Shown here piece after piece: positions 3,173 through 24,943 of a stretch of DNA of 64,000 nucleotides. Source of the stretch: Bacteriovoracaceae bacterium (lineage in GTDB: Bacteria; Bdellovibrionota; Bacteriovoracia; Bacteriovoracales; Bacteriovoracaceae); assembly GCA_029865945.1 (NCBI GenBank), contig JARXAH010000019.1, positions 1 to 64,000 of the forward strand. The letters are read 5' to 3'. Every line of letters begins with the position of its first letter. Position 1 is the first letter of the stretch. The notes beneath the pieces are model-generated. The model had not been told where the DNA came from. It saw only the letters and a list, made by a program, of their open reading frames with translations, and did no database searches. The position numbers and the translations under genes were made by a program.

Positions 3173-5116
3173 TTAAACTTCTTTAAAGTCTGCATCGACG
3201 GCGCCATCTTTTCCACCATTTTTCTGGTTAGGATTAGCATTCGCAGCTTCGTCTGCATGGCCATGTTGTTGCTCGGATCCTGGGCCAGCAGCGCCAGCAC
3301 CATCAGCTCCTGCACCACCATACATTCCTTGCGTTGTTTGGTGAACCACATTTTGCAATTTTTCTAGAGCGGCCTTCACTTCTTCTAAATTTTCAGAAGC
3401 CGTTTTCGTTTTAGCTTCCGCGATCGCATTATTTATTTCGGTAGCTTTGTCAGCGGGTAATTTTCCTTCTGATTCTTTCACCATTTTTTCTGCGGCGTAT
3501 GTCATCGAATCTAACTCATTTTTCGCATCCACTAATTCCCGTTTTTTCGCATCCGCGTCGCGATTTAATTCCGCATCTTTTACCATACGCTGAATTTCAG
3601 CTTCCGTTAAACCAGAGCCACTGGTAATTTTAATTTCTTGTTTTTTATTCGTTGCTTTGTCAGTGGCCGAAACGTGAATGATTCCGTTGGCATCGATATC
3701 AAAAATAACTTCAATTTGCGGAACACCACGAGGAGCTGGGTTAATTCCCATCAAGTCGAAATTTCCAAGCAGTTTGTTATCTTTCGCGAAATCGCGCTCA
3801 CCTTGAAGGGCACGAATCGTTACCGCTGGTTGATTATCAGCGGCCGTCGAAAATACTTGAGACTTCTTAACAGGAATCGTCGTATTTTTTTCAATAATTT
3901 TTGTAAATCGTCCACCTAGCGTTTCAATACCAAGAGAGAGCGGAGTGACATCTAGCAAAAGCACATCTTTGACATCACCAGCAAGTACCCCACCTTGAAT
4001 CGCAGCACCAGCGGCCACCACTTCATCTGGATTTACGTTTTTACTTGGTTCTTTTCCAAAAATTTCTTTTACTTTAGTTTGTACGAGAGGAATACGAGTC
4101 GATCCCCCCACTAAAATTACGTCGTGAAGCGCGGATGTCGGTATTCCTGAATCGGCCAAGGCCGTTTTACATGGGCCAACTAAACGATCAATTAAATCAC
4201 CAATCAATTGCTCAAATTTTGCGCGAGAAAGATTGATATTTAAGTGTTTCGGCCCTGAAGCGTCCGCCGTAATAAAAGGAAGATTGATATCTGTTTGCGA
4301 GACAGAAGATAATTCATGTTTCGCTTTTTCTGCCGCTTCTTTTAAGCGCTGAAGCGCCATTTTATCTTTTTTAAGATCGATATTAGTTTCTTTTTTAAAT
4401 TCATCCGCAAGATAATTGATAATTCGGTAATCAAAATCTTCCCCACCTAAGAAGGTATCACCGTTAGTTGCTTTTACTTCAAAAACACCGTCTGCGGTAA
4501 TTTCCAAAATGGAAACGTCGAACGTACCACCACCAAGATCGAAGACGACGATATTTTTATCTTTTTTGTCTTCCATACCAAAGGCCAGCGCTGCCGCCGT
4601 AGGCTCGTTGATAATACGTTTCACATCTAGGCCCGCGATTCGTCCGGCATCTTTTGTGGCTTGTCTTTGAGAATCGTTAAAGTAAGCAGGAACAGTAATA
4701 ACTGCTTCGGTTACTGGTTGGCCCAAATAATCTTCTGCAGATTTTTTCATTTTTTCTAAGATGGCAGCTGAAACTTCTTGTGGTGAATGTTCTTTTCCAT
4801 CCACTTTTACCCACGCATCTCCATTATTGTTAGCAATCACTTCGAAGGGAGCTACTTCTTTAAATTTTTTCACTTCAGCGTCAGTGGCCTTGCGTCCAAT
4901 GAGTCGCTTGATACCAAACAAAGTTTTAGTCGGATTGGTTACAGATTGTCTCTTTGCTACTTGCCCAACTAAAGTTTCTCCGTTGGACGCATAAGCGACA
5001 ATCGAAGGAGTCGTGTTGTGTCCTTCTGCATTGGGAATAATTTTATATTTTCCGTTTTCTAATACACCCACGCACGAGTTGGTGGTTCCTAAGTCAATTC
5101 CAATAATTTTACCCAT
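3173..5116 (-). CDS. dnaK: Chaperone DnaK (Hsp70)
   Basis: This is the ATP-dependent cytosolic chaperone. The actin-like ATPase domain starts with GIDLGTTNS, followed by the phosphate-2 motif [10 protein letters not shown] and [10 protein letters not shown]. The substrate-binding beta domain begins near residue 390 and a helical lid follows. The C-terminal tail is Gly/Ala/Asn-rich and ends in DADFKEV, close to the conserved EEVD-like bacterial ending. At 647 residues it is slightly long because of that tail. A GGAGG SD sits 5 nt before the ATG. It lies between grpE (51 nt upstream) and dnaJ. Confidence 0.99.
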
Positions 5117-5167
5117 AAATCCTCCGTTTAAATTTTTACCGTTTTCGTTTTTTGTTTTTTTTCTTTA

Positions 5168-5734
5168 TTAATGATTAAGTTTATTCACAACCACCTTGGC
5201 CGCACGCAACAACCTTCCGTTGTGTAAATAGCCAGACTGCTGTACTTGCAAGATGATGCCATCTTCCTTTTTGTCTACGGTCTCTTGGGAAATAGCTTCA
5301 TGAAAGTTGGGATCGAATGGTTTACCAAGAACGTCAATTTTGGTGAGGCCATGCTTAGCGAGAGAATCCAAAAACATTTTTTGAATCATATTGAGGCCAA
5401 TGACGATATTTTTTATCTGAGGGTCTTGATTGTTAGCTATGGAGTTAACCGTTAATTCAAAGAGGTCAAGGGTGGGTAGTGTGTCTGCAATCACGGAATC
5501 GTTACCAAATTTTATAATTTGTTCGCGATCTCGCTCCCAGCGCTTCTTCATATTTTCCATTTCAGCAGCGAGGTAGTAGTATTTTTCTTTCCACTGATTT
5601 TTTTCCGCTTCTAGTTTTTCCGAAAGAGAACTTTCTGATAAATCCTCTGACAAATTTTCTTTTCCATTTTCTTTTCCGCTAGCAGTAGCATTTTCAGGAT
5701 TTAAGGCTTCATTTTCAGGTCTCATTTCACTCAT
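5168..5734 (-). CDS. grpE: Nucleotide exchange factor GrpE
   Basis: GrpE promotes ADP release from DnaK. The protein has 188 residues: an acidic, low-complexity N-terminus (1-40), a long coiled coil starting around residue 45, and the conserved C-terminal beta domain with the FDPNFHEAI motif and the ending GRLLRAAKVVV. A GGGGAG SD lies 6 nt before the ATG. It is the first gene of grpE-dnaK-dnaJ. No CIRCE inverted repeat and no clear RpoH-type promoter were found in the roughly 265 bp upstream, so the heat-shock control is not visible to me. Confidence 0.97.
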   Translation of the reverse strand: MSEMRPENEALNPENATASGKENGKENLSEDLSESSLSEKLEAEKNQWKEKYYYLAAEMENMKKRWERDREQIIKFGNDSVIADTLPTLDLFELTVNSIANNQDPQIKNIVIGLNMIQKMFLDSLAKHGLTKIDVLGKPFDPNFHEAISQETVDKKEDGIILQVQQSGYLHNGRLLRAAKVVVNKLNH

Positions 5735-7378: not shown

Positions 7379-8530
7379 TTAAAATTTAATCCGAGAAAGC
7401 AATTCTTTCATCAAACTGTCGAGGATGATCCATCCTTGGGGTGTGAATTGATATTGAGTCTTGCTGCTTACCTCACAAGTTAACAAATATTTTTTCTGGG
7501 CCCAATCAGAAAAAAGGCCCACTAATTTGCTACTTTCCTTAGGCGGTAAATTTTGAAAAACATCTAAATCAAAATTTTCAGCGACGCGAAAGCGCAAGTA
7601 AAAATTCTCCAGTAAAACTTGATCATTCTTAAGAATTTCTAAGTCATATTCTTGCTTCAAAAGTGATTCTTTCCAAACATAGCGCAAGAATTGATTATCA
7701 CCATACTGATAGTGGCCGGCAGCACTCGGGCCCAAGGCCGCTATATTTTTTCGAAACCAGTACCCATAATTATGCTTTCCTTCATATCCTGGGATTGCAT
7801 AGTTTGAGACCTCATAGTGCCTAAAGCCATGACTACTTAAAAATTCATCCACAAATTGATATTCATTCGCCACCCATTCATCTTCTGGAATAAATTTTTT
7901 AAGTGGATAATTCGTTTTGGGATTAAGAATATAGAGGCTTATATGCTTTGGGCGGTAGGTAAGAATTCGTTTCAATTCTGATTCTAAATGGCGACTCCCC
8001 GAATGAGGGATACCCAATAAAAAATCCACACTAAAATTAACATCTTGAGCAGAAATGAGTTCTAATGTCTCTATAACATCGCTCATCTTGGATTTTCGGT
8101 CGCAAACTTCGATAAGTTTTTCATCCAAGGTTTGCAGTCCAAAAGAATAGCGATTCACTCCACTTATCTGCCAAGTTTCAAAATCATTGACGGTCATGGT
8201 CCCTGGATCAATCTCTAAGGTGAATTCGTGTCCTGAAGCTGCGAAGTTAAGATGAGACGTTTTAAGAAATTGCTGCAACCACTTTGCACCACTCGCACCC
8301 AAAAGGGACGGAGTGCCCCCACCCACGTAGAGAGTTTCCAGGGGCGCAAAATTCATTTGATACTCTTCGTGTACTTTCTCTTGCAATATTTTTAAACTAG
8401 AAGTGAGATAATTTTGAAATAATTTCTCCTGATGTTCACGTTGCTCTGGTGTTTGTTTTAATTTATAAAAATCGCAGTAATTGCACAAATGCCGACAGTA
8501 AGGATAGTGAATGTAGAGAGATTTTATCAT
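7379..8530 (-). CDS. hemW: Radical SAM haem chaperone HemW-like
   Basis: This 383-residue radical SAM protein belongs to the HemN/HemW family. The 4Fe-4S ligands are C12, C16 and C19 (CxxxCxxC). The SAM-binding GGGTPS follows, and the HemN-type C-terminal region includes FYLRFR. HemW proteins insert haem into respiratory enzymes and, unlike HemN, are not true coproporphyrinogen oxidases. The start next to the iron-sulphur motif and the short N-terminus favour HemW. It is divergent from the M16 peptidase gene with only 32 bp between them, and no SD is visible before the ATG. Confidence 0.85.
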   Translation of the reverse strand: MIKSLYIHYPYCRHLCNYCDFYKLKQTPEQREHQEKLFQNYLTSSLKILQEKVHEEYQMNFAPLETLYVGGGTPSLLGASGAKWLQQFLKTSHLNFAASGHEFTLEIDPGTMTVNDFETWQISGVNRYSFGLQTLDEKLIEVCDRKSKMSDVIETLELISAQDVNFSVDFLLGIPHSGSRHLESELKRILTYRPKHISLYILNPKTNYPLKKFIPEDEWVANEYQFVDEFLSSHGFRHYEVSNYAIPGYEGKHNYGYWFRKNIAALGPSAAGHYQYGDNQFLRYVWKESLLKQEYDLEILKNDQVLLENFYLRFRVAENFDLDVFQNLPPKESSKLVGLFSDWAQKKYLLTCEVSSKTQYQFTPQGWIILDSLMKELLSRIKF

Positions 8531-8562
8531 ATTAAAACTTAATCAAAAAAATGGGACAATAA

Positions 8563-11157
8563 ATGAAATCTTCAATTCAAGCAAATTTAAAAAACATTCA
8601 TGGACTAAAAGTAGTCAAGGTCCACGACCCTGTGGCCACCAGTGCTAGTATTCAAATTTGGTTTGCGGCAGGATCAGCTTGTGAAACGAAAGAGGAGAAA
8701 GGGATCGCTCACTTTTTAGAGCATATGTTTTTTAAAGGAACAGAGCAATATCCTGGAAATAAATTAACGGCAGAACTTGAAAAAATGGGATCGGAAGTCA
8801 ATGCCTTCACGTCTTTCGATTACACTTGTTACTACGTTAATTGCCCTCAAAGTGGAATCCTTGAATGCTTAGAGCGCATGATTGATATGGTTTCCAATCC
8901 CCTCTTTTTAGAAAAAGATCTCCAATCGGAAATCGGCGTCGTGCAAGAAGAGTATAAGCGCTCCTTCGACTCTCCCTCGCAATTTCATTTTCATCAATTG
9001 CAAGAGCATTTTTTTAAACCACCTTACCATTATCCCATTTTAGGAAAACCCAGTGACATCGCTAGTTTCACTATTGATAAGATTAAAAATTTTAGAAATA
9101 AATATTATCACGCGGGAAGCACACTCATCGTTATTGCTGGAAATCTAAAAGGACTGGATGGGGGAATTGATAAGAAACTTAAACTTCAAAAAATTCCTAA
9201 AAAAAAGGGAAAAGTGGACCAAAAACAAGCCAGCTTTGCTCTTAATAAAATTCCAAGGCCCTTTTTGCATCACAAGAAAAGTGTCCAGCAGGTAAATTTA
9301 CAAATACTCATTCCCGGACACGCTTATGACACCAAAGAAGCACCGCTTGAAGAAATAGCGATTAATTTTTTAAGTTCAGGAGAGAGCTCTTATTTACACA
9401 AAAAACTCGTTCAGGAATTGGAAGTGGCCAACAGTATTAGTGGATCAACCATGTACTTAAAGGGCGGCGCCACTCATTTTTTAAGGGCCTCGATTAGCAC
9501 GGATAAATTTTTAGATTTTCAAAAAGCGTGGCCACAGGTTTGGGAAGAACTCGCCCATAATGACCTTGTGGAAGAAGAAATTCAAAAAATTAAAAATCAA
9601 TTCTACGCGAGTAAAATTTACGAAAAAGAGTCACTTGAGTCCTACGCCTTCACCTTAGGCCACAACTATATTTTTACGGGCAATTTGTTGGGCGACGATT
9701 CATTCTTGAAACGAGTGAAAGACGCCAAATTAATCGATGTGAAAAAACAATTAAACTCGCTCGTTAAAAAAACCTGGAGTTTTTCTCTACAAACACCAAT
9801 GAAATTTGACGATAAACTCATTGCACCTTTTTCTTCGGAAATTAATAAATATTCAGTTAATTTATTAAAAGAAAAAAAACACACCCCCATTAAAAAGAAA
9901 ACCTTTGAACGAGTAGAATTATTTACACTTACTGACCAGTTGCAAGTTTTTTATCGCTACAACCCTAAAACTCCCACATTTTCCCTTCATTCTCTTATTG
10001 ATGGTGGAATCATTAATGAAACGAAGGCCACTAACGGCCATTATCAAATGCTTTCACGCATGCTATCTCTCGAGCATAAAAAGAAAGATTACGATTCGCT
10101 TCAGTGGGAATTGGAATTTTTGGCCGCCTCCATCAATGGATATACGGGAAAAAATAGTTACGGCCTATCCATGTATGGCCTAACAGAGCATTGGGATAAA
10201 TTATTTGAAAATTATCTACTTTGCTTAAAATATCCAAAATTTTCTCAAGGACAATTTGATATTCAAAAAAATATTTTATTGCAAACTCTTAAAAATATTA
10301 CGGAAGATCCTGCGAAGCAATGTTTTAGAAATTTTCAAAATAATTTTTTCAAGACTCATCCCTATGGTTTAGATTCTTTAGGTAACAAGGAGTCATTAGA
10401 AAAATTAACCATTGAGCAATTGCAAACCCTTCATGATCATTCTCTCACCCAACGTCCCATTACTTTTCTTTTTAGTGGAGATATCGACCCCAAAACTTTT
10501 GAAAAAACAATCTTGAGTCGTTTTCAAAAAGAATTTTCTTTTGAAAATAAAAATCCATTATTGAAAATGGACACTGCTATCTATCAACCAAAGGCCTATG
10601 ACTCTCATTACTATGTTTCTATGGATAGAGAGCAATCTCATATTTTTATTGGATATCCATCTTTTAATGCCACTGATCCAAAAAATATTTTCCTCACCAT
10701 TTTAAATGATTTTTTGGCCGGACAATCCAGTGATCTCTTTAGAATTACGCGAGATGAGCTGGGACTTTGTTACGCGGTCCACCCGATGGCGAATTCCGGA
10801 CTCAATGCAGGTTATTGGGGAATTTACATTGCTACAGGAGAAGGCAAAGAAGAAGCGGCCTTAAAATCCATTCAAGGAATCCTTGCCGACCTCGGAAAAA
10901 AAGGACTCCGCGCCGATCAACTAGCGGATACCAAAACGAGTATTGCTGGCCAACAATCCCTTAAGCTTCAAACCAACGATGATTTTTGTAACTACTATTC
11001 ATTTTCGACACATTTTAAAATGGGCCTGGATTTTGAAAGTCAGAAATTAAAAAACTTAAAAAATGTATCACTAGAAGATTTTAATAAATTTATGCGCGAT
11101 TTCTTACAAAAAAAATCCCTCACCGTGTGTGTTGGGCGCAAAAATCCTTGGCCATAA
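8563..11157 (+). CDS. M16 family zinc metallopeptidase (two-module)
   Basis: This 864-residue protein has an inverted zinc motif HFLEH (H50, E53, H54) and a third ligand near E130 (VVQEEY), 76 residues downstream, typical of an active M16 N-terminal module. The second half, from about residue 430, repeats the M16 fold without HxxEH and ends with the GLCYAV substrate-cleft block, as in pitrilysin or PqqL-like single-chain enzymes. No signal peptide is seen, so it is probably cytosolic. It likely degrades oligopeptides, but the substrate is unknown. It heads a plus-strand run leading to the carboxylase genes. Confidence 0.88.
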   Translation: MKSSIQANLKNIHGLKVVKVHDPVATSASIQIWFAAGSACETKEEKGIAHFLEHMFFKGTEQYPGNKLTAELEKMGSEVNAFTSFDYTCYYVNCPQSGILECLERMIDMVSNPLFLEKDLQSEIGVVQEEYKRSFDSPSQFHFHQLQEHFFKPPYHYPILGKPSDIASFTIDKIKNFRNKYYHAGSTLIVIAGNLKGLDGGIDKKLKLQKIPKKKGKVDQKQASFALNKIPRPFLHHKKSVQQVNLQILIPGHAYDTKEAPLEEIAINFLSSGESSYLHKKLVQELEVANSISGSTMYLKGGATHFLRASISTDKFLDFQKAWPQVWEELAHNDLVEEEIQKIKNQFYASKIYEKESLESYAFTLGHNYIFTGNLLGDDSFLKRVKDAKLIDVKKQLNSLVKKTWSFSLQTPMKFDDKLIAPFSSEINKYSVNLLKEKKHTPIKKKTFERVELFTLTDQLQVFYRYNPKTPTFSLHSLIDGGIINETKATNGHYQMLSRMLSLEHKKKDYDSLQWELEFLAASINGYTGKNSYGLSMYGLTEHWDKLFENYLLCLKYPKFSQGQFDIQKNILLQTLKNITEDPAKQCFRNFQNNFFKTHPYGLDSLGNKESLEKLTIEQLQTLHDHSLTQRPITFLFSGDIDPKTFEKTILSRFQKEFSFENKNPLLKMDTAIYQPKAYDSHYYVSMDREQSHIFIGYPSFNATDPKNIFLTILNDFLAGQSSDLFRITRDELGLCYAVHPMANSGLNAGYWGIYIATGEGKEEAALKSIQGILADLGKKGLRADQLADTKTSIAGQQSLKLQTNDDFCNYYSFSTHFKMGLDFESQKLKNLKNVSLEDFNKFMRDFLQKKSLTVCVGRKNPWP

Positions 11158-16084: not shown

Positions 16085-16648
16085 ATGACAGAAAAGAAAT
16101 TGCCATTACAACAATTAGCGTTAAATCCCATTTCAGAAAAAATCACTCTCCATCAATATATTTTTGATCATATCTCATTGGCGAATAAAAAATTATATCG
16201 ACCGATCCATGATATTTATTTATTTTATTGCGCTCAACTATTTGAAAAATACATGACAAGTGAAAAATTTTTTTCTATCACTTCTCTTGGACAACTTTAC
16301 TTAGAACTACAAACGCCTCCTGCAGTCAGTGATGAGAAACAAGTTTTCGAAAGTTCAACTTCTCTTCCTGTTAAATTACAGTCTCTTGCAGATACCGCCT
16401 TTCTCACTTGTGCTATATTCTCAGAATCTAAAAAAACTAAATTACTTGGTCTCAACTATTACTCCCAAATTTGTAAAAATTCTTATTTTCAATTGAATCG
16501 CTTGAGGCCATCCTACCTCGATCAACCGAATTTCTTTTTTCAGTATGCTAATCATTCCCCTCTAGTTCTTACCCTTCTTAATGATATAAAAATCGATAGC
16601 GATTCCAACCAAATCTGGCAACTATTCAAATCTCAAATGTCTGCGTAA
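16085..16648 (+). CDS. Unknown protein upstream of cheA
   Basis: The family is not recognised. The product has 187 residues with no signal peptide or membrane segment, is mainly helical, and is rich in Tyr, Phe, Leu and Ser. The start has an AAGGTG SD a few bases before the ATG. It has its own TATAAT-type promoter candidate and lies 84 nt upstream of cheA, on the same strand. A separate sigma28-like promoter is seen in that gap, so it need not belong to the chemotaxis operon. Cytosolic location is inferred. Confidence 0.65.
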   Translation: MTEKKLPLQQLALNPISEKITLHQYIFDHISLANKKLYRPIHDIYLFYCAQLFEKYMTSEKFFSITSLGQLYLELQTPPAVSDEKQVFESSTSLPVKLQSLADTAFLTCAIFSESKKTKLLGLNYYSQICKNSYFQLNRLRPSYLDQPNFFFQYANHSPLVLTLLNDIKIDSDSNQIWQLFKSQMSA

Positions 16649-16732: not shown

Positions 16733-18829
16733 ATGGATGACTTGGATAAAGAGTTCAAGCAAGATTTTCTTACGGAAGCTAAGGAACTATTGGATAGTAC
16801 TGAGCGCTCATTTTTAGAATTAGAACAGCAACCTGATGACTCATCACTTATTAATAATATTTTTCGATTTGCCCACAACTTAAAAGGAACTTCTCGAGCA
16901 GTGGGCTTTGGCCAAATTGCTGAACTTACCCACAATGCTGAAAATCTTCTCTTGAAACTTAAGCAAGGAGAAATGAAAGCAAACGAAAGAACGGTCAATG
17001 CTTTATTATCCTTCAATGACAAAGTTAAAGAAATGGTTGAAGGCCTTCAACAAGACTTAGACAAACAATTTGAAATCGCTGGACTAGTTCTTGAATTAGA
17101 ACAAATTTGTAGTAACAAAATTGAAACAATTGAAAATGAAACGTCGGATGGAGCAGAAGGAACCGATTCCGATTCCGATTCCCCTGAGGAAAGTGAATTA
17201 GTTGATGTTGCCCCGCCTAGTGAATTATTTGAAGAACATCCCGAATCAACACCAGAGGCATCTCCAATCATTGATGAAGTACAACTTGCAGTGGATTACG
17301 AATTAGCTAAAAATGGACGACAAAATTTCGATTCTGATGACCATGATTTTCCCAAAGTTGCTGCAAGCGCTGACCTTGCGCAGTCCAATAAAGATGATCA
17401 AGTTGAAATTAATCCTGACGCATTAAAAGACCTTGAAGAGCTTTATGGAATTAGCAAAGACGCAGAAGTCACTGCGATAGTTAAAGCGGATGTCAAAGTT
17501 GAAGCCAAAGTTGACGCCCATATCAACGCCAGAGAAGAAAACAAAATATTAGTAAAACCGGCCGTAGCCAATGAAAGCACAAAAGTTGCTTCGAAAGAAC
17601 CTCTCAAAGAAAAAGAAAAAGAAAAAGAAAAAGAAAATGGCAAAGAACGAGAAGATGAAACGATTCGAGTTTCTCTTATGAGACTGGAAAAATTAAATGA
17701 CTTAGTAGGTGAATTAGTCATTCTTCAAAGTGTGGCAGAGCAGGCACTTCTGCAATCTAGTAACAGCAAAATTGCCAGATCACTTGGAAAATTATGTAAA
17801 GACATCCAAGACCTCTCCATGTCGCTTCGCATGGTACAAGTCGGCCCCACGTTTCAAAAATTAAACCGAACCGTTCGCGATACATCAAAATTATTAAATA
17901 AAAAAGTCGAGTTAAAAATTATTGGAGAAACCACAGAAATAGATAAGATTGTTCTAGAAAAATTAGGCGATCCACTCGTTCACATCATTCGTAACGCTGT
18001 CGATCACGGAGTAGAAACCCCAGACGTCAGATTAGCAAGCGGCAAAAATGAAACGGGTATTGTTGAAGTGATGGCGTTTCATGAAGGAAACTTTTTAGTC
18101 ATCCAAGTTACCGACGACGGAAAAGGAATTGATCCCAAAAAAATCACTCAAAAGGCCATTGAAAAAGGAATCCTTTCAAAATCCCAAACAATCACAGATC
18201 AGCAGGCCGTGGAATTAGTTTTTCATCCGGGTTTTTCCACTAAAGAACAAGTATCAGAAGTATCTGGCCGTGGTGTGGGAATGGATGTGGTCAAAACAAA
18301 TATTGAGTCTCTGGGTGGCAGCGTAAAAATACAATCTAGGCCGGGTGTGGGTTCGGCGATCCGCATGGTACTTCCGTTAACACTTGCCATCATCGATGGA
18401 ATGCAAGTCATTTGTGGAAATCAGCATTTAATCATTCCAAGAATTCAAGTTCACGAAGTAACAAAACTTGATCCTGCCAGGTTAACCATCATGACAGGAC
18501 GAACACCTTATTATCGTCTTCGTGATGAGGTCATTCCAGTATTTAATTTAAGTAAAGATTTTTCCATTCCTTCCAAAATGGAACCAGAGATAGCTTTAAT
18601 TGTTCGCACTGGAAAGGCAACCTACGCAGTCGCCATTAACGATGTTGAAAGACAACAACAAGTGGTGGTTAAACCGCCAACAACAGAAACTCTTTCCACC
18701 AAAGGAATCATGGGTACAACTATTTTAAGTAATGGATCTCCGGCCCTCATTTTAGATTTACTGGAAATTTATAAAAATAAAATTGCAAAAGAATCTATTT
18801 CATCTGTTAAAACAGCAGGCGCGGCCTAA
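16733..18829 (+). CDS. cheA: Chemotaxis histidine kinase CheA
   Basis: CheA autophosphorylates on the HPt domain and passes phosphate to receiver domains under receptor control. In its 698 residues: HPt (1-105) with H48 in AHNLKGTSR; a long acidic, low-complexity linker (about 130-310) with a KEKEKE run; dimerisation helices (LVGELVILQ); a HATPase domain with the N box HIIRNAVDHG, DDGKGID, FHPGFSTKE and GRGVGMDVVK; and a C-terminal CheW-like domain. I cannot see a P2 (CheY/CheB docking) domain; the linker occupies its place. It is the first gene of the che operon. Confidence 0.97.
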   Translation: MDDLDKEFKQDFLTEAKELLDSTERSFLELEQQPDDSSLINNIFRFAHNLKGTSRAVGFGQIAELTHNAENLLLKLKQGEMKANERTVNALLSFNDKVKEMVEGLQQDLDKQFEIAGLVLELEQICSNKIETIENETSDGAEGTDSDSDSPEESELVDVAPPSELFEEHPESTPEASPIIDEVQLAVDYELAKNGRQNFDSDDHDFPKVAASADLAQSNKDDQVEINPDALKDLEELYGISKDAEVTAIVKADVKVEAKVDAHINAREENKILVKPAVANESTKVASKEPLKEKEKEKEKENGKEREDETIRVSLMRLEKLNDLVGELVILQSVAEQALLQSSNSKIARSLGKLCKDIQDLSMSLRMVQVGPTFQKLNRTVRDTSKLLNKKVELKIIGETTEIDKIVLEKLGDPLVHIIRNAVDHGVETPDVRLASGKNETGIVEVMAFHEGNFLVIQVTDDGKGIDPKKITQKAIEKGILSKSQTITDQQAVELVFHPGFSTKEQVSEVSGRGVGMDVVKTNIESLGGSVKIQSRPGVGSAIRMVLPLTLAIIDGMQVICGNQHLIIPRIQVHEVTKLDPARLTIMTGRTPYYRLRDEVIPVFNLSKDFSIPSKMEPEIALIVRTGKATYAVAINDVERQQQVVVKPPTTETLSTKGIMGTTILSNGSPALILDLLEIYKNKIAKESISSVKTAGAA
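17606..17637 (+). repeat. Hexanucleotide repeat inside cheA
   Basis: About five tandem GAAAAA units (four perfect) encode alternating Lys-Glu in the CheA linker. The six-base period means gain or loss of a unit keeps the frame and changes only linker length. A shorter GATTCC triplet repeat lies about 430 bp upstream in the same linker region. Confidence 0.85.
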
Positions 18830-18843
18830 GGAAAGGATCAATT

Positions 18844-19305
18844 ATGTTTGATGAAAAAAAAGAAGTTAATAACATTGAGAAATATCTCTTATTTGAATTA
18901 GGCAAAGAATTATATGCCATAGAACTTTTAGAGGTAAAAGAAGTGATCACGCCGCCTGAAACAACTCCTATCCCTAAATGCCAACCTTACGTTTGCGGAC
19001 TCATGAATTTAAGAGGCTTAGTACTCACCATAGTTGACTTGCGAAAAAAATTAAATATCACGCAAGGTCCAATCACACCAGAGAATGCCGTCATTATTTT
19101 TGATTTAAAAAATAGATTAGTGGGCGGCGTCGTAGATTCAATCGTTAAGGTCATTAACTTGAAAAAAGATGCCATTAAACCCGTACCCGATGACAACACT
19201 ACCGGGCATCACCTGAAAGGCGTGATCGAACATGAAAACACGCTATGCTTACTAATTGACGCTAATAAAATGTTTGAATCTGTTCCGCAAAAAAAAGCAG
19301 CATAA
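18844..19305 (+). CDS. cheW: Chemotaxis coupling protein CheW
   Basis: CheW bridges receptors and CheA in the signalling array. The 153-residue protein is a single CheW SH3-like domain with the features FELGKELYAI, VKEVI, the GLMNLRG block and the DLRKKL segment. It starts 14 nt after cheA with an AAGGA SD, so the two are likely translated together. The C-terminal tail ends PQKKAA. Confidence 0.97.
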   Translation: MFDEKKEVNNIEKYLLFELGKELYAIELLEVKEVITPPETTPIPKCQPYVCGLMNLRGLVLTIVDLRKKLNITQGPITPENAVIIFDLKNRLVGGVVDSIVKVINLKKDAIKPVPDDNTTGHHLKGVIEHENTLCLLIDANKMFESVPQKKAA

Positions 19306-19352: not shown

Positions 19353-21785
19353 ATGAAATCGCTTAAAACAAAAATCTTAGTTAGCCTGCTTGCTGTTGGT
19401 ATCATCCCTTTCAGTCTTCTAGGTTTTTTTATTTATCGCAATTTTTCGGACTCTCTCATGGATTCACATTACGAGAAATTAAAATTTATCAATGATTTAA
19501 AAAAGAAAGAGGTTACTGAATTTTTTAAAAAGCTAAGTGATGAAACCTTCCTCAACACTGAAAACCCAACCACGGCCGAAGCAATAAAAAACTTATCCGA
19601 ATCTTTCTATAAATTTGGTTCTGAAACTGGATGGTCGCAGGAACTAAATTCTGAGTATGAAAAAGAATTAAAAAAATATTACACCAACGATTTCAATACC
19701 GAATTTAAAAAGCAAAATGAAAATGAAGAATCTAAATCCGATGAGGTATTCAATCAACTAAAGCGAGAAAACTTAGTCTTACAATATAGCTACATTGCCA
19801 AAAATAAAAACCCGCTTGGCTCAAAACATCTTTTGTCCCACGATGACCTACCTACAACTTACAATAAATTTCATCAAAAGTATCATCCATGGTTTAGAGA
19901 GCAGCTAGAGCGGATTGGTCTATATGATATTTTTCTAGTCGATCTACAGGGATCGGTAGTTTATACCGTATTTAAAGAACTCGACTTTGCAACCAACTTG
20001 AAAACAGGCCCATATGCTAAATCATCACTTGCAAAACTTTACGAAGAAATTTTAAAGCAAGACCCCAGCAAACCTAAAACTTTATTTGCTGATTACGAAA
20101 ATTATTACGCAAGTTACAATGGGGCCGCATCATTCATGGGAGCTCCTATCGTTGAAAATGGAAAAATAATTGGTGTCTTTGCCGTGCAAATCTCCTTTGA
20201 TAAAATCAACGAACTTACTGGCTTTATTCCCAAGGGAATTACCGACATTGAAACACTCATGGTCGGAACTGACTTCAAATTAAGAAGTGATACCCTTTTC
20301 AATAAAGATACTTTTAACGTGAAAAACTCTTTCCGCTATCCAGAAAAATACTCTATTAAATCAAAAGAAATTGATCAAGCCATCACAGGAAATTCCTTAA
20401 ACGGAAGACGAATCAACCTTCGCGGGCATGATGTGATTTACGCAATTGATTCACTCGATATTTTTGGCAACAAATGGTCGATTGAAACTAACCACAAGGC
20501 CGAAGCGGCGCTTGCCTCCCTTGTTCACGTACAAAAAATCATCTACCTTTTTGCGGCCGTCATCTTTTCAGTAATTCTCTTTCTTGCTCTTTTTGTTTCC
20601 AATCGTTTTTCTAATCTTTTAAGATCCATTGCCACTAGATTAAAAAATGAAATTACATCCTTAACTATCAATGCCAAAAAACTTTCCGAATCTTCATCTA
20701 GTTTATCTGCTGCCACGACAGAACAATCGTCGAGCTTACAAGAAACAGTGGCGTCTATCGATGAAATTTCTGCCATGGTCGCAAGGAATTCTGATAGTGC
20801 AAATCAAGCTACAGAAGTTTCTGAAAAATCTACGAAGGCCGCGCAAAAAGGAAAAGAAAAAACAGAGGAACTAATGTCATCCATTAATCAAATTAAATCT
20901 GGAAATGATGAAATGATGAAAAAAATGCAAAGGTCCAACGACGAAATTTCTGAAATAGTAAAAGTTATTCAAGATATTTCCCAAAAAACTAAAGTAATTA
21001 ACGATATTGTTTTCCAAACTAAGTTACTTTCTTTTAACGCATCGGTTGAGGCAGCGCGAGCAGGTGAGCACGGAAAAGGTTTTGCTGTTGTAGCTGAAGA
21101 GGTTGGGAATCTCGCTTCGATGTCTGGGAAGGCGGCCAACGAAATTAGCGAAATGCTAGAAAGAAGTGTGAAGAAAGTATCTTCAGTTGTAGATGGATCT
21201 AAATTATTGATGGATGACATGATGAAAGATATTAAATCCAAAGTGGATGTGGGAACGAAAAATGCCTCTGAGTGTTCAGTTGCACTAGAAGAAATTTTAT
21301 CAAACGTTTCTGTTGCCAATGAAATGGTACGAGAAATTGCGACAGCGTCAATTGAGCAAACTACTGGCGTTAAAGAGATCAATAAGGCCATGTCGGAACT
21401 TGATAAGGTAACCCAATCTAATAACTCCGTCTCGCAAGAAGTCTCTCTATCTGCTAATGATTTAAGCGGACAATCAAGCAGAATTGAAAAGATTACTAAC
21501 GAATTAAGTTTTTTTGTTGATGGGAATATTGAGGTTCGTGAATTTAAAAATCATGATTCTCATTCAGAAAAATCTAACAGGAAAAATTCGACCTCTTCGC
21601 ACGGAAAATCAGAAATGGGAAAAGTGCTTACACTAACCCCTAAACAGGGAACGAAAAAATCCTTAAATCCTGCACCCAATCATGCTTCAGGAGCAAAAGT
21701 TTCGTCTGAAAAAGACAGTATCAATTATGCAGTGGTAGAAAATTCAACGCCGGAACATAATGATCCACGTTTCGAAGAAGTATAA
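19353..21785 (+). CDS. Methyl-accepting chemotaxis protein with dCACHE-like sensor
   Basis: This is an 810-residue receptor: a first membrane segment at about 8-27, a large periplasmic sensor (about 30-390) of double-CACHE type (the FADYENYYASYNGAASF region is typical), a second membrane segment at about 396-418, then the signalling coiled coil. The conserved hairpin tip, with EAARAGEHGKGFAVVAEEV, is near residue 565-585. No HAMP domain is visible between the second membrane segment and the coiled coil. A polar tail of about 85 residues ends in DPRFEEV, possibly an adaptation-enzyme tether. The ligand is unknown. Confidence 0.92.
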   Translation: MKSLKTKILVSLLAVGIIPFSLLGFFIYRNFSDSLMDSHYEKLKFINDLKKKEVTEFFKKLSDETFLNTENPTTAEAIKNLSESFYKFGSETGWSQELNSEYEKELKKYYTNDFNTEFKKQNENEESKSDEVFNQLKRENLVLQYSYIAKNKNPLGSKHLLSHDDLPTTYNKFHQKYHPWFREQLERIGLYDIFLVDLQGSVVYTVFKELDFATNLKTGPYAKSSLAKLYEEILKQDPSKPKTLFADYENYYASYNGAASFMGAPIVENGKIIGVFAVQISFDKINELTGFIPKGITDIETLMVGTDFKLRSDTLFNKDTFNVKNSFRYPEKYSIKSKEIDQAITGNSLNGRRINLRGHDVIYAIDSLDIFGNKWSIETNHKAEAALASLVHVQKIIYLFAAVIFSVILFLALFVSNRFSNLLRSIATRLKNEITSLTINAKKLSESSSSLSAATTEQSSSLQETVASIDEISAMVARNSDSANQATEVSEKSTKAAQKGKEKTEELMSSINQIKSGNDEMMKKMQRSNDEISEIVKVIQDISQKTKVINDIVFQTKLLSFNASVEAARAGEHGKGFAVVAEEVGNLASMSGKAANEISEMLERSVKKVSSVVDGSKLLMDDMMKDIKSKVDVGTKNASECSVALEEILSNVSVANEMVREIATASIEQTTGVKEINKAMSELDKVTQSNNSVSQEVSLSANDLSGQSSRIEKITNELSFFVDGNIEVREFKNHDSHSEKSNRKNSTSSHGKSEMGKVLTLTPKQGTKKSLNPAPNHASGAKVSSEKDSINYAVVENSTPEHNDPRFEEV

Positions 21786-21814: not shown

Positions 21815-23575
21815 ATGTCGACTGCAAAAAAATTAATTAGTTGGGAAGAATTAATATCAAAGGTGTGTCAGTTTGCCGCCGAAACCAGTGCCAATGTTTT
21901 CAGCGAAAAACAACTCCCCATGGTTGAATCAAGATTGAAACGAAGGCTATCCGAATTAAAACTATCTGGACCCGATGAATACCTAGATTACTGGAATAAT
22001 AATACCGCATCAGAAAATAAAATTATTTTAAGTTTACTGACAACTCACTTTACTTCTTTTTTTCGAGAATTCATGCACTTTGAGTGGATCGGTAAAAATT
22101 TGAGCTCCATCATAAAAAATGTAAAAGCTGAGGGCCGCTCAAAAATCACTATTTGGTCAGCCGCATGCTCAAAGGGCCAAGAGGTATGGTCGCTAGCTAT
22201 GTGGTTTCAAAACCAAATGGAACAACAAGAAACAAAAATTTCTTGGGAAATATTTGGATCTGACATTGATGAGCATTCCGTAAAAGAAGCGATGAATGGT
22301 GTTTATCACAAGCGGGAGTTAGAAACAGCTCCTAGAAAATTATGGGAAAATCATTGGGTACAAGGTAAAGCGGAACTAGCAGATTGGTATAAAGTCAAAA
22401 AACAAATTCATGAAAAGGCGACGTTTGGTTCCTATAACCTTATCGATTTAAAAATGCCGGCCCAACAAAAATTTGATCTGATCATGTGCCGCAACGTGCT
22501 CATTTACTTTGATAAAACAAACCAGTCTAAGGCCGTTAAAAATATGCTCTCCCACCTCTATCCTTCGGGAGTCTTGATTACTGGCCTATCGGAATCCTTG
22601 ACCGGATCGGAATTAGATTTAAGGTCCCTATCTCCCTCTGTGTATCAATTTAAATCCTTTGTTGATTTACTACCCAAGGTGGCGTCAGAATCCAAAAAAT
22701 CTACTTCATCTCCTTCACTCAACACTCTTCCTGTTCCTCTCAAAGTATTTTGCGTTGATGACTCTCCCACTGTCATTAAATTGCTAAAGCATTTATTTCA
22801 AGATCAAGATTTTACGGTTGTGGGAACAGCAAGCAACGGGCAAGAGGCGCTTGAAAAAATTCCCAAGTCTAACCCTGATGTCATCACCCTTGATATTCAC
22901 ATGCCCATCATGGATGGCCTAACATTAGTTAAAAATTCCGATTTAGCAAGCAAGTATCCCATCGTGGTTGTAAGCTCCGTGCAACGAGATGATCAGACTA
23001 TTATTGGGCCTCTCTTTGAAAAAGGCGTAAAAGATTTTGTTGAAAAACCCACACTAGAAAATATTAAAATAATTAAAGAAGAGTTGTTTCAAAAATTAAA
23101 AATGTCTTGGCTAGATAAATCCAATAAATCGACCGCCTTAAAAAGCGATAATTCTTCTAACGCTAGCACAAAACAAAAAGATCTCCCTCCTATTTACATT
23201 ACCGTTAACGAAAATGAGGCGAGTAAAATATTTGATTTTACTTCCCAAAATTTACAAAACACCTTAACGCTTTATTTTATAGTTGACACAAAAATTGATA
23301 ACTTAAAATCAACTTGGAATCTTTATAAAAATAAATTTTCCCCTAAATCAAAAATTATTTCCTACTCAGATTACAAAAATGAATTGCAACCAAAAATTTG
23401 GATTCATACAAAGAATTCTCCTGAAGAAATTATTCTTAAGAATGCATCTGAGCACGACTTTATCATTGCCGAAGAAACTAATGTCAACTCTAGTGAAATC
23501 AAAAAAATTGCGTTCGATATTTCTCCTCTCACTTCCATACCTTATCTCATCAATAAGTATGGGGAGGTAAAATAG
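21815..23575 (+). CDS. cheR: CheR methyltransferase fused to a receiver domain
   Basis: Residues 1-280 are CheR, which methylates receptor glutamates with SAM: the N-terminal helical domain, the TTHFTSFFRE block, IWSAACSKGQE (SAM loop), GSDID and CRNVLIYF. Residues about 308-430 form a response-regulator receiver with DD near 315, phospho-acceptor D360 in LDIHMP and a late VEKP lysine. The last 145 residues match nothing I recognise. The stop codon (TAG) is followed at once by the TTG start of cheB in the same frame. Confidence 0.93.
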   Translation: MSTAKKLISWEELISKVCQFAAETSANVFSEKQLPMVESRLKRRLSELKLSGPDEYLDYWNNNTASENKIILSLLTTHFTSFFREFMHFEWIGKNLSSIIKNVKAEGRSKITIWSAACSKGQEVWSLAMWFQNQMEQQETKISWEIFGSDIDEHSVKEAMNGVYHKRELETAPRKLWENHWVQGKAELADWYKVKKQIHEKATFGSYNLIDLKMPAQQKFDLIMCRNVLIYFDKTNQSKAVKNMLSHLYPSGVLITGLSESLTGSELDLRSLSPSVYQFKSFVDLLPKVASESKKSTSSPSLNTLPVPLKVFCVDDSPTVIKLLKHLFQDQDFTVVGTASNGQEALEKIPKSNPDVITLDIHMPIMDGLTLVKNSDLASKYPIVVVSSVQRDDQTIIGPLFEKGVKDFVEKPTLENIKIIKEELFQKLKMSWLDKSNKSTALKSDNSSNASTKQKDLPPIYITVNENEASKIFDFTSQNLQNTLTLYFIVDTKIDNLKSTWNLYKNKFSPKSKIISYSDYKNELQPKIWIHTKNSPEEIILKNASEHDFIIAEETNVNSSEIKKIAFDISPLTSIPYLINKYGEVK

Positions 23576-24943
23576 TTGTCCTCAAATTTAACGCTTGGAA
23601 AAATTATTTCTGAAACGGCAGGTAAGTGGAAAATCGACTTAATTCCTGATTATGTTTTTGTTTGGAAACAAGGCCCAAAACCTCAATCTATTTTTTGCAA
23701 AAACTTAGACGAAATACCAACGACTTGGTGGTCAGGCGAACCTTGCAAGGTATTTTATTTTCATCAAAATAAAAATCTCGTTTCTTCACAAAGCAAGCTG
23801 CCCCCTGGATCCAAGCTCATTGCTTATCAATTAACTACACCACGAGCACAAGTGGAGCTTGATTTTTCTAGCAATGTGGTACGTTTTCAAGGAAAGCGTA
23901 CCAAACGGGTCCTCATGGTGGAAGACTCGCCAACCATGCGCAAAGTATTAAAGCATATTTTTTTGCAATTCCCAGATTGGGAATTAATTTCAGAATCAGC
24001 AAGTGCAAAAGATTTATCAGAGCAGTTATTAATCCATCTTCCTGATCTTGTGACCTTAGATTTACACTTGGGCGATTCCAATGGAATAGAAATCATGCAA
24101 AGATTTTTATCTCCTAAAAAAATTCCTACGATACTAATCACTTCGCAATCTATTAAAGATGGAAATATGGTCATGGAAGCTCTTAGTGCTGGTGCCATGG
24201 ATTACCTACAAAAGCCTCAAACTAATAATTGGAATGAATTAAAGGATGCGCTTTTAGAAAAAATGAATCTCATTGTTAATGCAAAATGGCTCAATAAATC
24301 TAGCTTCAAAAATGAAATTAACTCGCAATTTAAATTACAATTTTCTGATTTTGACCATACCATTATTGCCATAGGATCCTCAACCGGAGGCCCACAAGCT
24401 CTTCAGGAAGTTTTACAAAATTTGCCCGATGAAATTCCTCCTATTTTAATAACACAACATATACCGGCCGGTTTTTCGAAGGCATTGGCCGATCGCCTAA
24501 ACACTCTTTGCCCTTTTACCATCAAAGAAGCGCAGGATGGTGAAACGATATCTCGCAATGTTGTGTATATTGCTCCAGGTGATAAGCATATGCTTATTAC
24601 GCAGGATGGAACTCGCATAGCTCTAGACGACTCTCCACCCATTAACCGATTTCGCCCCTCGGTGGATGCCATGTTTCAGTCTATTTCTCTTCGATGTAAA
24701 AAGAAAATTGTTGGAGTCATATTAACTGGCATGGGCAAGGACGGTGCGCAAGGTTTGCTTCAATTACGAAACCTCGGTGCACTTACCATTGCTCAAGACG
24801 AAGCTACTTGTGTAGTTTATGGAATGCCTAAAGAAGCGATCAGGCTTGAAGCTGCTCAAAGTATTACTCCCATTCAACATGTTGCCAATGAAATTGTTAA
24901 GCTTGCCAACCTCAAAGTTTCAACAATGAAGCTGGCAAAATAA
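23576..24943 (+). CDS. cheB: Protein-glutamate methylesterase CheB
   Basis: CheB demethylates or deamidates receptors when phosphorylated by CheA. The start is TTG, directly after the preceding TAG, with GGGGAGG 8 nt upstream. Residues 1-110 are an unrecognised extra region. A receiver domain (about 112-235) has phospho-acceptor D162 in LDLHLGD. The methylesterase domain (about 260-445) has the catalytic triad S269 (GSSTGGP), H295 (QHIPAGF) and D389 (GMGKDGAQG). At 455 residues it is about 100 longer than usual CheB because of the N-terminal region. Confidence 0.94.
   Translation: MSSNLTLGKIISETAGKWKIDLIPDYVFVWKQGPKPQSIFCKNLDEIPTTWWSGEPCKVFYFHQNKNLVSSQSKLPPGSKLIAYQLTTPRAQVELDFSSNVVRFQGKRTKRVLMVEDSPTMRKVLKHIFLQFPDWELISESASAKDLSEQLLIHLPDLVTLDLHLGDSNGIEIMQRFLSPKKIPTILITSQSIKDGNMVMEALSAGAMDYLQKPQTNNWNELKDALLEKMNLIVNAKWLNKSSFKNEINSQFKLQFSDFDHTIIAIGSSTGGPQALQEVLQNLPDEIPPILITQHIPAGFSKALADRLNTLCPFTIKEAQDGETISRNVVYIAPGDKHMLITQDGTRIALDDSPPINRFRPSVDAMFQSISLRCKKKIVGVILTGMGKDGAQGLLQLRNLGALTIAQDEATCVVYGMPKEAIRLEAAQSITPIQHVANEIVKLANLKVSTMKLAK

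Follow-up and report, generated by a model that had tools for sequence, protein, structure and literature searches.

In the textbook chemotaxis pathway, feedback from the kinase acts on only one of the two adaptation enzymes, CheB; CheR is constitutive (PMC2829493). The locus described here raises the question of why the other adaptation enzyme, CheR, should be joined to a receiver domain (REC) and to a further C-terminal tail. If the receiver on CheR is phosphorylated, then both adaptation enzymes would be under feedback, which would constitute a different control design. The window (i.e., the whole stretch of DNA that was analysed, 64,000 nucleotides of contig JARXAH010000019.1 from a Bacteriovoracaceae bacterium, assembly GCA_029865945.1) contains a chemotaxis cluster on the plus strand, in the order cheA, cheW, mcp, cheR-REC and cheB (Table 1). 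The genome from which it comes is 3.08 Mb in 103 contigs and is 96% complete. The chain occurs in bacteria that are related to bacterial predators.

The initial annotation listed cheA, cheW, mcp, cheR and cheB without a cheY, and this was borne out: the genes of the cluster are all present and no free cheY was found in the window, the only Response_reg matches on the contig being those in cheR-REC and cheB, according to a scan of the whole genome (36 matches, E up to 0.001). The CheB of the cluster comprises about 112 additional N-terminal residues, followed by a receiver and an intact methylesterase domain. In the cluster CheA, no P2 domain was found by Pfam; its linker contains many charged residues. 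Upstream of cheA is an ORF (16085–16648, 187 aa) without a credible family match.

Table 1. Positions of the chemotaxis genes and of the domains and motifs within them (numbering of the window).
Feature	Position	Strand	Remarks
cheA	16733..18829	+	698 aa; Hpt, ~200-residue linker, dimerisation, HATPase, CheW-like (Pfam)
cheW	18844..19305	+	153 aa
mcp	19353..21785	+	810 aa; MCP signalling domain and sub-threshold dCache match
Receptor C-terminal tail DPRFEEV	21762..21782	+	
cheR-REC-pseudocheB	21815..23575	+	586 aa
CheR SAM-binding methyltransferase domain (putative)	22049..22624	+	nine sampled motif residues identical in 40/40
CheB-type receiver	22745..23053	+	phospho-acceptor D360 codon 22892-22894
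Tail (pseudoCheB)	23102..23572	+	probable degenerate CheB methylesterase domain, no triad, D[IV]xPxTS near C-terminus
Intact partner cheB	23576..24943	+	455 aa; TTG start immediately 3' of cheR-REC stop codon
CheB N-terminal extension	23576..23908	+	candidate pseudoCheD via subgroup of relatives excluding window's
CheB methylesterase domain	24365..24895	+	Ser-His-Asp triad present

Some match to the chain at E 0.001 was obtained in every one of the 129 genomes that belong to this taxonomic family. The best 30 loci were taken (L041–L070, the window among them), and an aligning C-terminal tail was present in all 30. Together with three named loci (Bacteriovoracaceae bacterium UBA4097, Bacteriovorax sp. 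and Bdellovibrionales bacterium) and seven further loci, these form a set of 40 sequences, and the inclusion of 18 distant loci, drawn from 58 profile-matched genomes outside the family, gives a set of 58 tails. Some of the rows are near copies, and the CheR domains of L124 (UBA4097) and L044 are identical, an identity by which the family is assigned to Bdellovibrionota. In ten other genomes, the chain was matched nearly from end to end, tail included, with 44–47% identity; thus, its architecture is not due to chance.

The first part of the chain was matched by Pfam as CheR at residues 79–270 (PF01739; E 3.8e-48; 164 bits, with a cut-off of 27), preceded by a CheR_N match at residues 15–59 that was narrowly below its cut-off, and by phmmer to the structure 1af7 (E 1.7e-33). 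Nine residues which we take to belong to the catalytic methyltransferase motifs (A117, S119, G121, E123, D150, N208, R226, N227 and Y231) are unchanged across all 40 family sequences. By its domain and motif residues, the chain is a putative methyltransferase of the CheR family.

The second part was matched as Response_reg at residues 311–413 (E 1.5e-21). In the window chain, this domain has the acceptor D360, the two acidic residues D315 and D316, S387 and K411. Of these five positions, only 387 varies among the 40 family sequences, with S in 38 of them and T in two. Thus, the earlier description of this CheR as fused to a complete receiver with D360 holds, both by Pfam and by the retention of the phosphorylation residues in all 40 sequences. 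In a tree of 54 receivers, that of the window lies among the receivers of CheBs and apart from all single-domain receivers but one, the exception being the long-branched single-domain receiver L013 of this same genome; several of the supports are moderate. A CheY-type receiver was rejected on the basis of this tree.

The third part had been called an unknown tail of 145 residues. A tail is indeed present, but it is longer (residues 430–586, about 157 residues) and is best interpreted as a degenerate CheB domain. Neither Pfam nor NCBIfam gave a match to the tail, in the window or in those relatives that were tried, which could favour an unrelated alpha/beta domain without CheB origin. An unrelated domain is nevertheless highly improbable, given that the profile match covers the whole domain and that the controls were clean. 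By hhalign, 30 tails matched CheB domains with 91% (P 1e-6, 81 columns), 40 tails with 85% (P 6e-6, 154 columns), and 58 tails matched 55 CheB domains with 93.1% (P 3.3e-7, 158 columns), the controls for the 58 tails (REC, CheR, CheD and the N-terminal extension of CheB) each remaining below 1%. Also against an unrelated domain, an HMM of 30 tails found the intact CheB domain in four of 22 CheB chains (L211, L221, L222 and L225; E values of 4e-5 to 4e-4, for a set of this small size) and missed the other 18. The tail HMM had no match at E 1e-4 among 73 CheB chains of named loci, taken from the best 80 of at least 593 matches. Furthermore, the tail follows a CheB-type receiver, i.e., it occupies the same place as the methylesterase in intact CheR-REC-CheB fusions.

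For the window itself, the link between tail and CheB has two steps, because its own subgroup of 12 tails matches CheB only via the 46 other tails. The subgroup gave no direct match (hhalign 0.4%), which counts towards an unrelated domain; it matched the other 46 tails with 97.9% (P 5e-13), and these matched CheB with 93.4% over 79 columns. An HMM of the 46 tails picked up the tail of the window at E 4.9e-5 (for a search space of one), the weakest value among the 12.

The tail of the relative L125 (four sequences) yielded a weak AlphaFold2 model (pLDDT 58.1), for which VIA-align placed CheB structures at ranks 1–4 (Z 10.4, 9.5, 9.4 and 9.2, the next row having 8.2; rmsd 3.2–3.5 over 123–135 residues), a further argument against an unrelated domain. 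Foldseek placed CheB at ranks 7, 13, 20 and 29 for the same model, and all of its matches, whether to CheB or not, had E values above 0.001. For the AlphaFold2 model of the window tail (pLDDT 60.7), all Z values were below 5, the top row was thioredoxin-like (Z 4.7) and CheB was absent from the listed structural matches; this lends the unrelated domain some support but is not proof of a different fold. The tail profile A4 matched PDB sequences only at E 0.2 or worse, CheB not being among them. CheD as the identity of the tail was rejected (hhalign 0.2%), as was an unknown new domain, on profile, HMM and tree evidence.

The catalytic residues appear to have been lost from this domain. In the merged alignment, Ser, His and Asp of the triad are each present in all 55 CheB domains, whereas among the 58 tails Ser is present in 24, His in none and Asp in one, and no tail has the complete triad (an earlier alignment of 40 tails gave 19, 0 and 0, respectively). 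In the window tail, the three aligned residues are N, D and E. Thus, the tail looks like a dead methylesterase domain. Close to its C-terminus, there is a motif, D[IV]xPxTS, which is conserved with some exceptions. The ratio dN/dS, calculated for pairs of relatives' tails (the window being in none), was 0.017–0.097 in the eight of 11 pairs that had an estimable dS; three pairs were saturated and dS exceeded 1.7 in seven of the other eight, the sole pair far from saturation being L045/L046 (dS 0.36, ratio 0.017). Judged from these ratios, the tail is under purifying selection; a freely decaying sequence was rejected, as dN/dS is far below 1.

A possible origin for such a domain can be seen within the genome itself, which has four CheR and four CheB matches. 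On contig C48, two ORFs (647 and 676 aa) each encode CheR, REC and CheB as one chain, with all three domains above the Pfam cut-offs, and it is the presence of these two intact fusions in the same genome that suggests that the tail is a decayed CheB domain. It is very probable that the chain is derived from such a fusion, that the methylesterase triad was lost, and that the domain was kept as a pseudo-enzyme with an intact CheB beside it or in the same chain. The two intact fusions are close together on the minus strand of C48 (L039, G000:C48; ORFs 3485–5428 and 7738–9768), in a region with receptors and with ORFs that, by eye, are CheA-like, CheW-like and hybrid-kinase-like.

In a tree of CheR domains (125 rows, rooted at the midpoint), the 40 pseudo chains, three long chains and the intact fusion L207 share one side of a 100/99 branch, and this set is nested within a 100/98 group that holds nine further intact fusions; outside the group are 70 single CheRs and two other fusions. 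The single CheRs were taken from 69 of 77 other named loci, with filters of E 1e-38 and <330 aa. A single loss of the triad is likely, although the tree does not fix the branching order inside the inner group. A pattern search of contigs found CheR-REC-tail as one chain in three of the best 80 of at least 593 matches; most of the others among these 80 have cheR and cheB as separate genes, and L191, L194 and L203 have the order CheB-CheR within one chain.

Single chains of about 1050–1180 aa were observed in L218, L219, L220, L277 and L278, consisting of CheR, REC, a pseudoCheB-like region, REC and CheB. In three of the long fusions, the middle region resembles the tails (87.7%) and the N-terminal extension of CheB (63%), with no direct match to CheB (0.1%).

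Within the class, 48 of 129 genomes were matched by the tail profile A4; in the phylum Bdellovibrionota, 106 of 368 genomes were matched (56 of 181 genera), more than a quarter of those searched, with one match per genome. These counts err in both directions, because the five weakest rows (E above 1e-6) are possibly true CheB domains and because three long chains were missed by the profile. The initial annotation had named, as a refutation of its reading, a widespread and already characterised CheR-REC family: the family is widespread, but no characterisation of it was found in open-licence papers.

Gene neighbourhoods were compared at 38 loci (20 plus the 18 distant ones). Directly after cheR-REC-pseudocheB there is an intact cheB in 30, in four the cheB is within the same chain (L241, L242, L277 and L278; a fifth long chain is L219), and in four it is not adjacent (L239, L270, L272 and L280). 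A single-domain receiver is present inside the examined stretch in nine of the 38, which weakens the claim that the absence of a free receiver is essential. Such absence is perhaps overcounted, because the stretches vary in length (the contig of L125 is 4.9 kb).

The receptor of the cluster ends in DPRFEEV. An ending [FW]x[DE][VIL] occurs in 19 of 22 receptors near clusters of the family, the receptors without it being those in L124, L271 and L284, and in none of the five other receptors of the window genome. One of the CheR features, a G-x-G in the β-subdomain, is a mark of CheRs that are tethered to a receptor pentapeptide; in this family, G184 is present in 40 of 40 sequences and G186 in 35 of 40, the window having A186. 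The published rule for the pentapeptide at the receptor C-terminus is xZxxZ, where Z is F, W or Y (PMC7390727), to which RFEEV conforms at position 2 but not at position 5; the receptor tails of the family have V, I or L at position 5, the aromatic residue being absent. At L245 (G000:C7), on the minus strand, a receptor gene is divided by an in-frame stop into open stretches of 311 and 268 codons, which is either a broken gene or a sequence error.

The search for a cheY elsewhere in the genome, which had been proposed along with the initial annotation, was successful. The receiver encoded at G000:C11:13036-13389 is a canonical CheY, judged from its matches to CheY structures (best E 7.8e-40), and CheX (E 4e-17) and flagellin are on the same 12.5-kb stretch. 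Because CheY, CheX and flagellin share this stretch and FliG_C was matched in the genome, the motor is most likely served by a separate CheY, which would bind to it; the initial annotation had supposed as much. At L287 (10863–12465), CheY, a protein of 181 aa with sub-threshold CheZ and Hpt matches, and CheX follow one another, and flagellin is some 3 kb beyond them.

These features can be brought together in the following mechanism. The CheA of the cluster, with no CheY beside it, would phosphorylate the receivers of both CheB and CheR-REC-pseudoCheB. In CheB, phosphorylation would release the methylesterase; in CheR-REC-pseudoCheB, it would alter the contact between REC and pseudoCheB, which in turn would gate either the activity of CheR or the way in which it docks, via the RFEEV tail, to the receptor of the cluster itself. 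A single kinase would thereby exert feedback on both adaptation enzymes, and the motor would receive its signal through the CheY encoded close to cheX and flagellin in another part of the genome. The architecture suggests that the activity of CheR may be switched by the sensing pathway, rather than being always on. That REC-pseudoCheB controls the activity or docking of CheR in response to phosphorylation is, from comparison of sequences, a proposition with about an even chance of being correct. A broader and more tentative proposal, with rather less than an even chance, is that of a phylum-wide module, in which one CheA would run a phospho-switched CheR with a dead methylesterase and a phospho-activated CheB, the N-terminus of which may be a dead CheD, on a receptor with the tail RFE[DE][VI].

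The strongest of the alternatives is that the pseudoCheB domain serves in docking alone, i.e., that it confines CheR to the vicinity of the receptor tail, of CheA or of the partner CheB, and that activity is not controlled by phosphorylation. The adjacency or fusion of CheB in 34 of the 38 neighbourhoods and the shared ending of the 19 receptor tails are consistent with a scaffold, as is the location of the conserved motif near the end of the tail, outside the catalytic triad. Invariance of the acceptor residues in all 40 sequences is, however, not required of a receiver that is not used, and a scaffold alone is considered unlikely.

Somewhat less likely still is a phosphate sink, in which the receiver would drain phosphate from CheA and so shorten or shape the signal, with CheR and the tail not regulated by the receiver. 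As the cluster lacks a CheY, it encodes no acceptors other than these two receivers, and the acceptor residues of the receiver on CheR are conserved, as would be expected of a sink. Yet a sink does not need its CheB-type receiver to be still joined to a constrained domain, and nine of the 38 neighbourhoods do have a single-domain receiver.

It is improbable that the receiver and pseudoCheB form a separate output module of the pathway, attached to CheR but with a role outside adaptation: multidomain response regulators are typical of the clusters of alternative-function pathways (PMC3447774), which together with the lack of a cheY in the cluster would favour such a module, but there is no recognised output domain, and both homology and gene order bind the chain to the CheR-CheB pair.

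The chain can be compared with systems that are already known. CheB, which comprises REC and methylesterase, has the same domain order, in that a CheB-type receiver is followed, in the relatives, by a methylesterase homologue. It differs in that the 58 tails lack the triad, that a CheB segment of about 30 residues has no counterpart, and that the window family adds the conserved D[IV]xPxTS as well as a CheR in front. Intact CheR-REC-CheB fusions (the two in this genome and others in the same family) share the domain order, and 10 of the 12 sampled are on the same side of the CheR tree as the pseudo chains; their methylesterase is recognised directly by Pfam or by a CheB profile, whereas the window chain has a pseudo-enzyme and a separate intact CheB. 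Single-domain CheRs (1af7, 1bc5) share the methyltransferase domain and its motifs, the receiver being additional in the window chain. The CheR of E. coli has been described as constitutively active (PMC2829493). CheR also has an add-on in the CheR-TPR fusions, but this is TPR and not REC-pseudoCheB, and in FrzF of Myxococcus the TPR part implies inhibition of methylation (PMC3447774). In Pseudomonas aeruginosa Che2, the C-terminal tail of McpB, GWEEF, is reported to bind both CheR2 and CheB2 of the cluster, and there is likewise one tailed receptor per genome for one cluster; that tail ends in an aromatic residue and RFEEV in an aliphatic one, and the available part of that source does not mention a receiver on CheR2 (PMC7698151).

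The individual parts are known. Joined in one chain as CheR, CheB-type receiver and predicted dead methylesterase, an arrangement widespread in one phylum, they are apparently undescribed: no description of CheR-REC-CheB or CheR-REC-pseudoCheB was found in open-licence papers, which is not proof of absence, nor was one found there of a pseudo-enzyme domain derived from CheB.

The N-terminal extension of the partner CheB is possibly a second pseudo-enzyme. In a subgroup of relatives that excludes the window's, it matched the C-terminal half of CheD by hhalign with 67% (P 5e-5), and in that subgroup it is possibly a pseudoCheD. With all sequences pooled, the match to CheD was 35%, and for the window's own subgroup 0.4%; the two subgroups of extensions matched each other with just 21%. 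As a further remnant of CheB or CheR, the extension gave no match. Single-chain CheD-REC-CheB fusions with a recognisable CheD were observed in L154 (1759–3345; from a Bdellovibrio sp. MAG), L109, L114, L115, L121 and L122.
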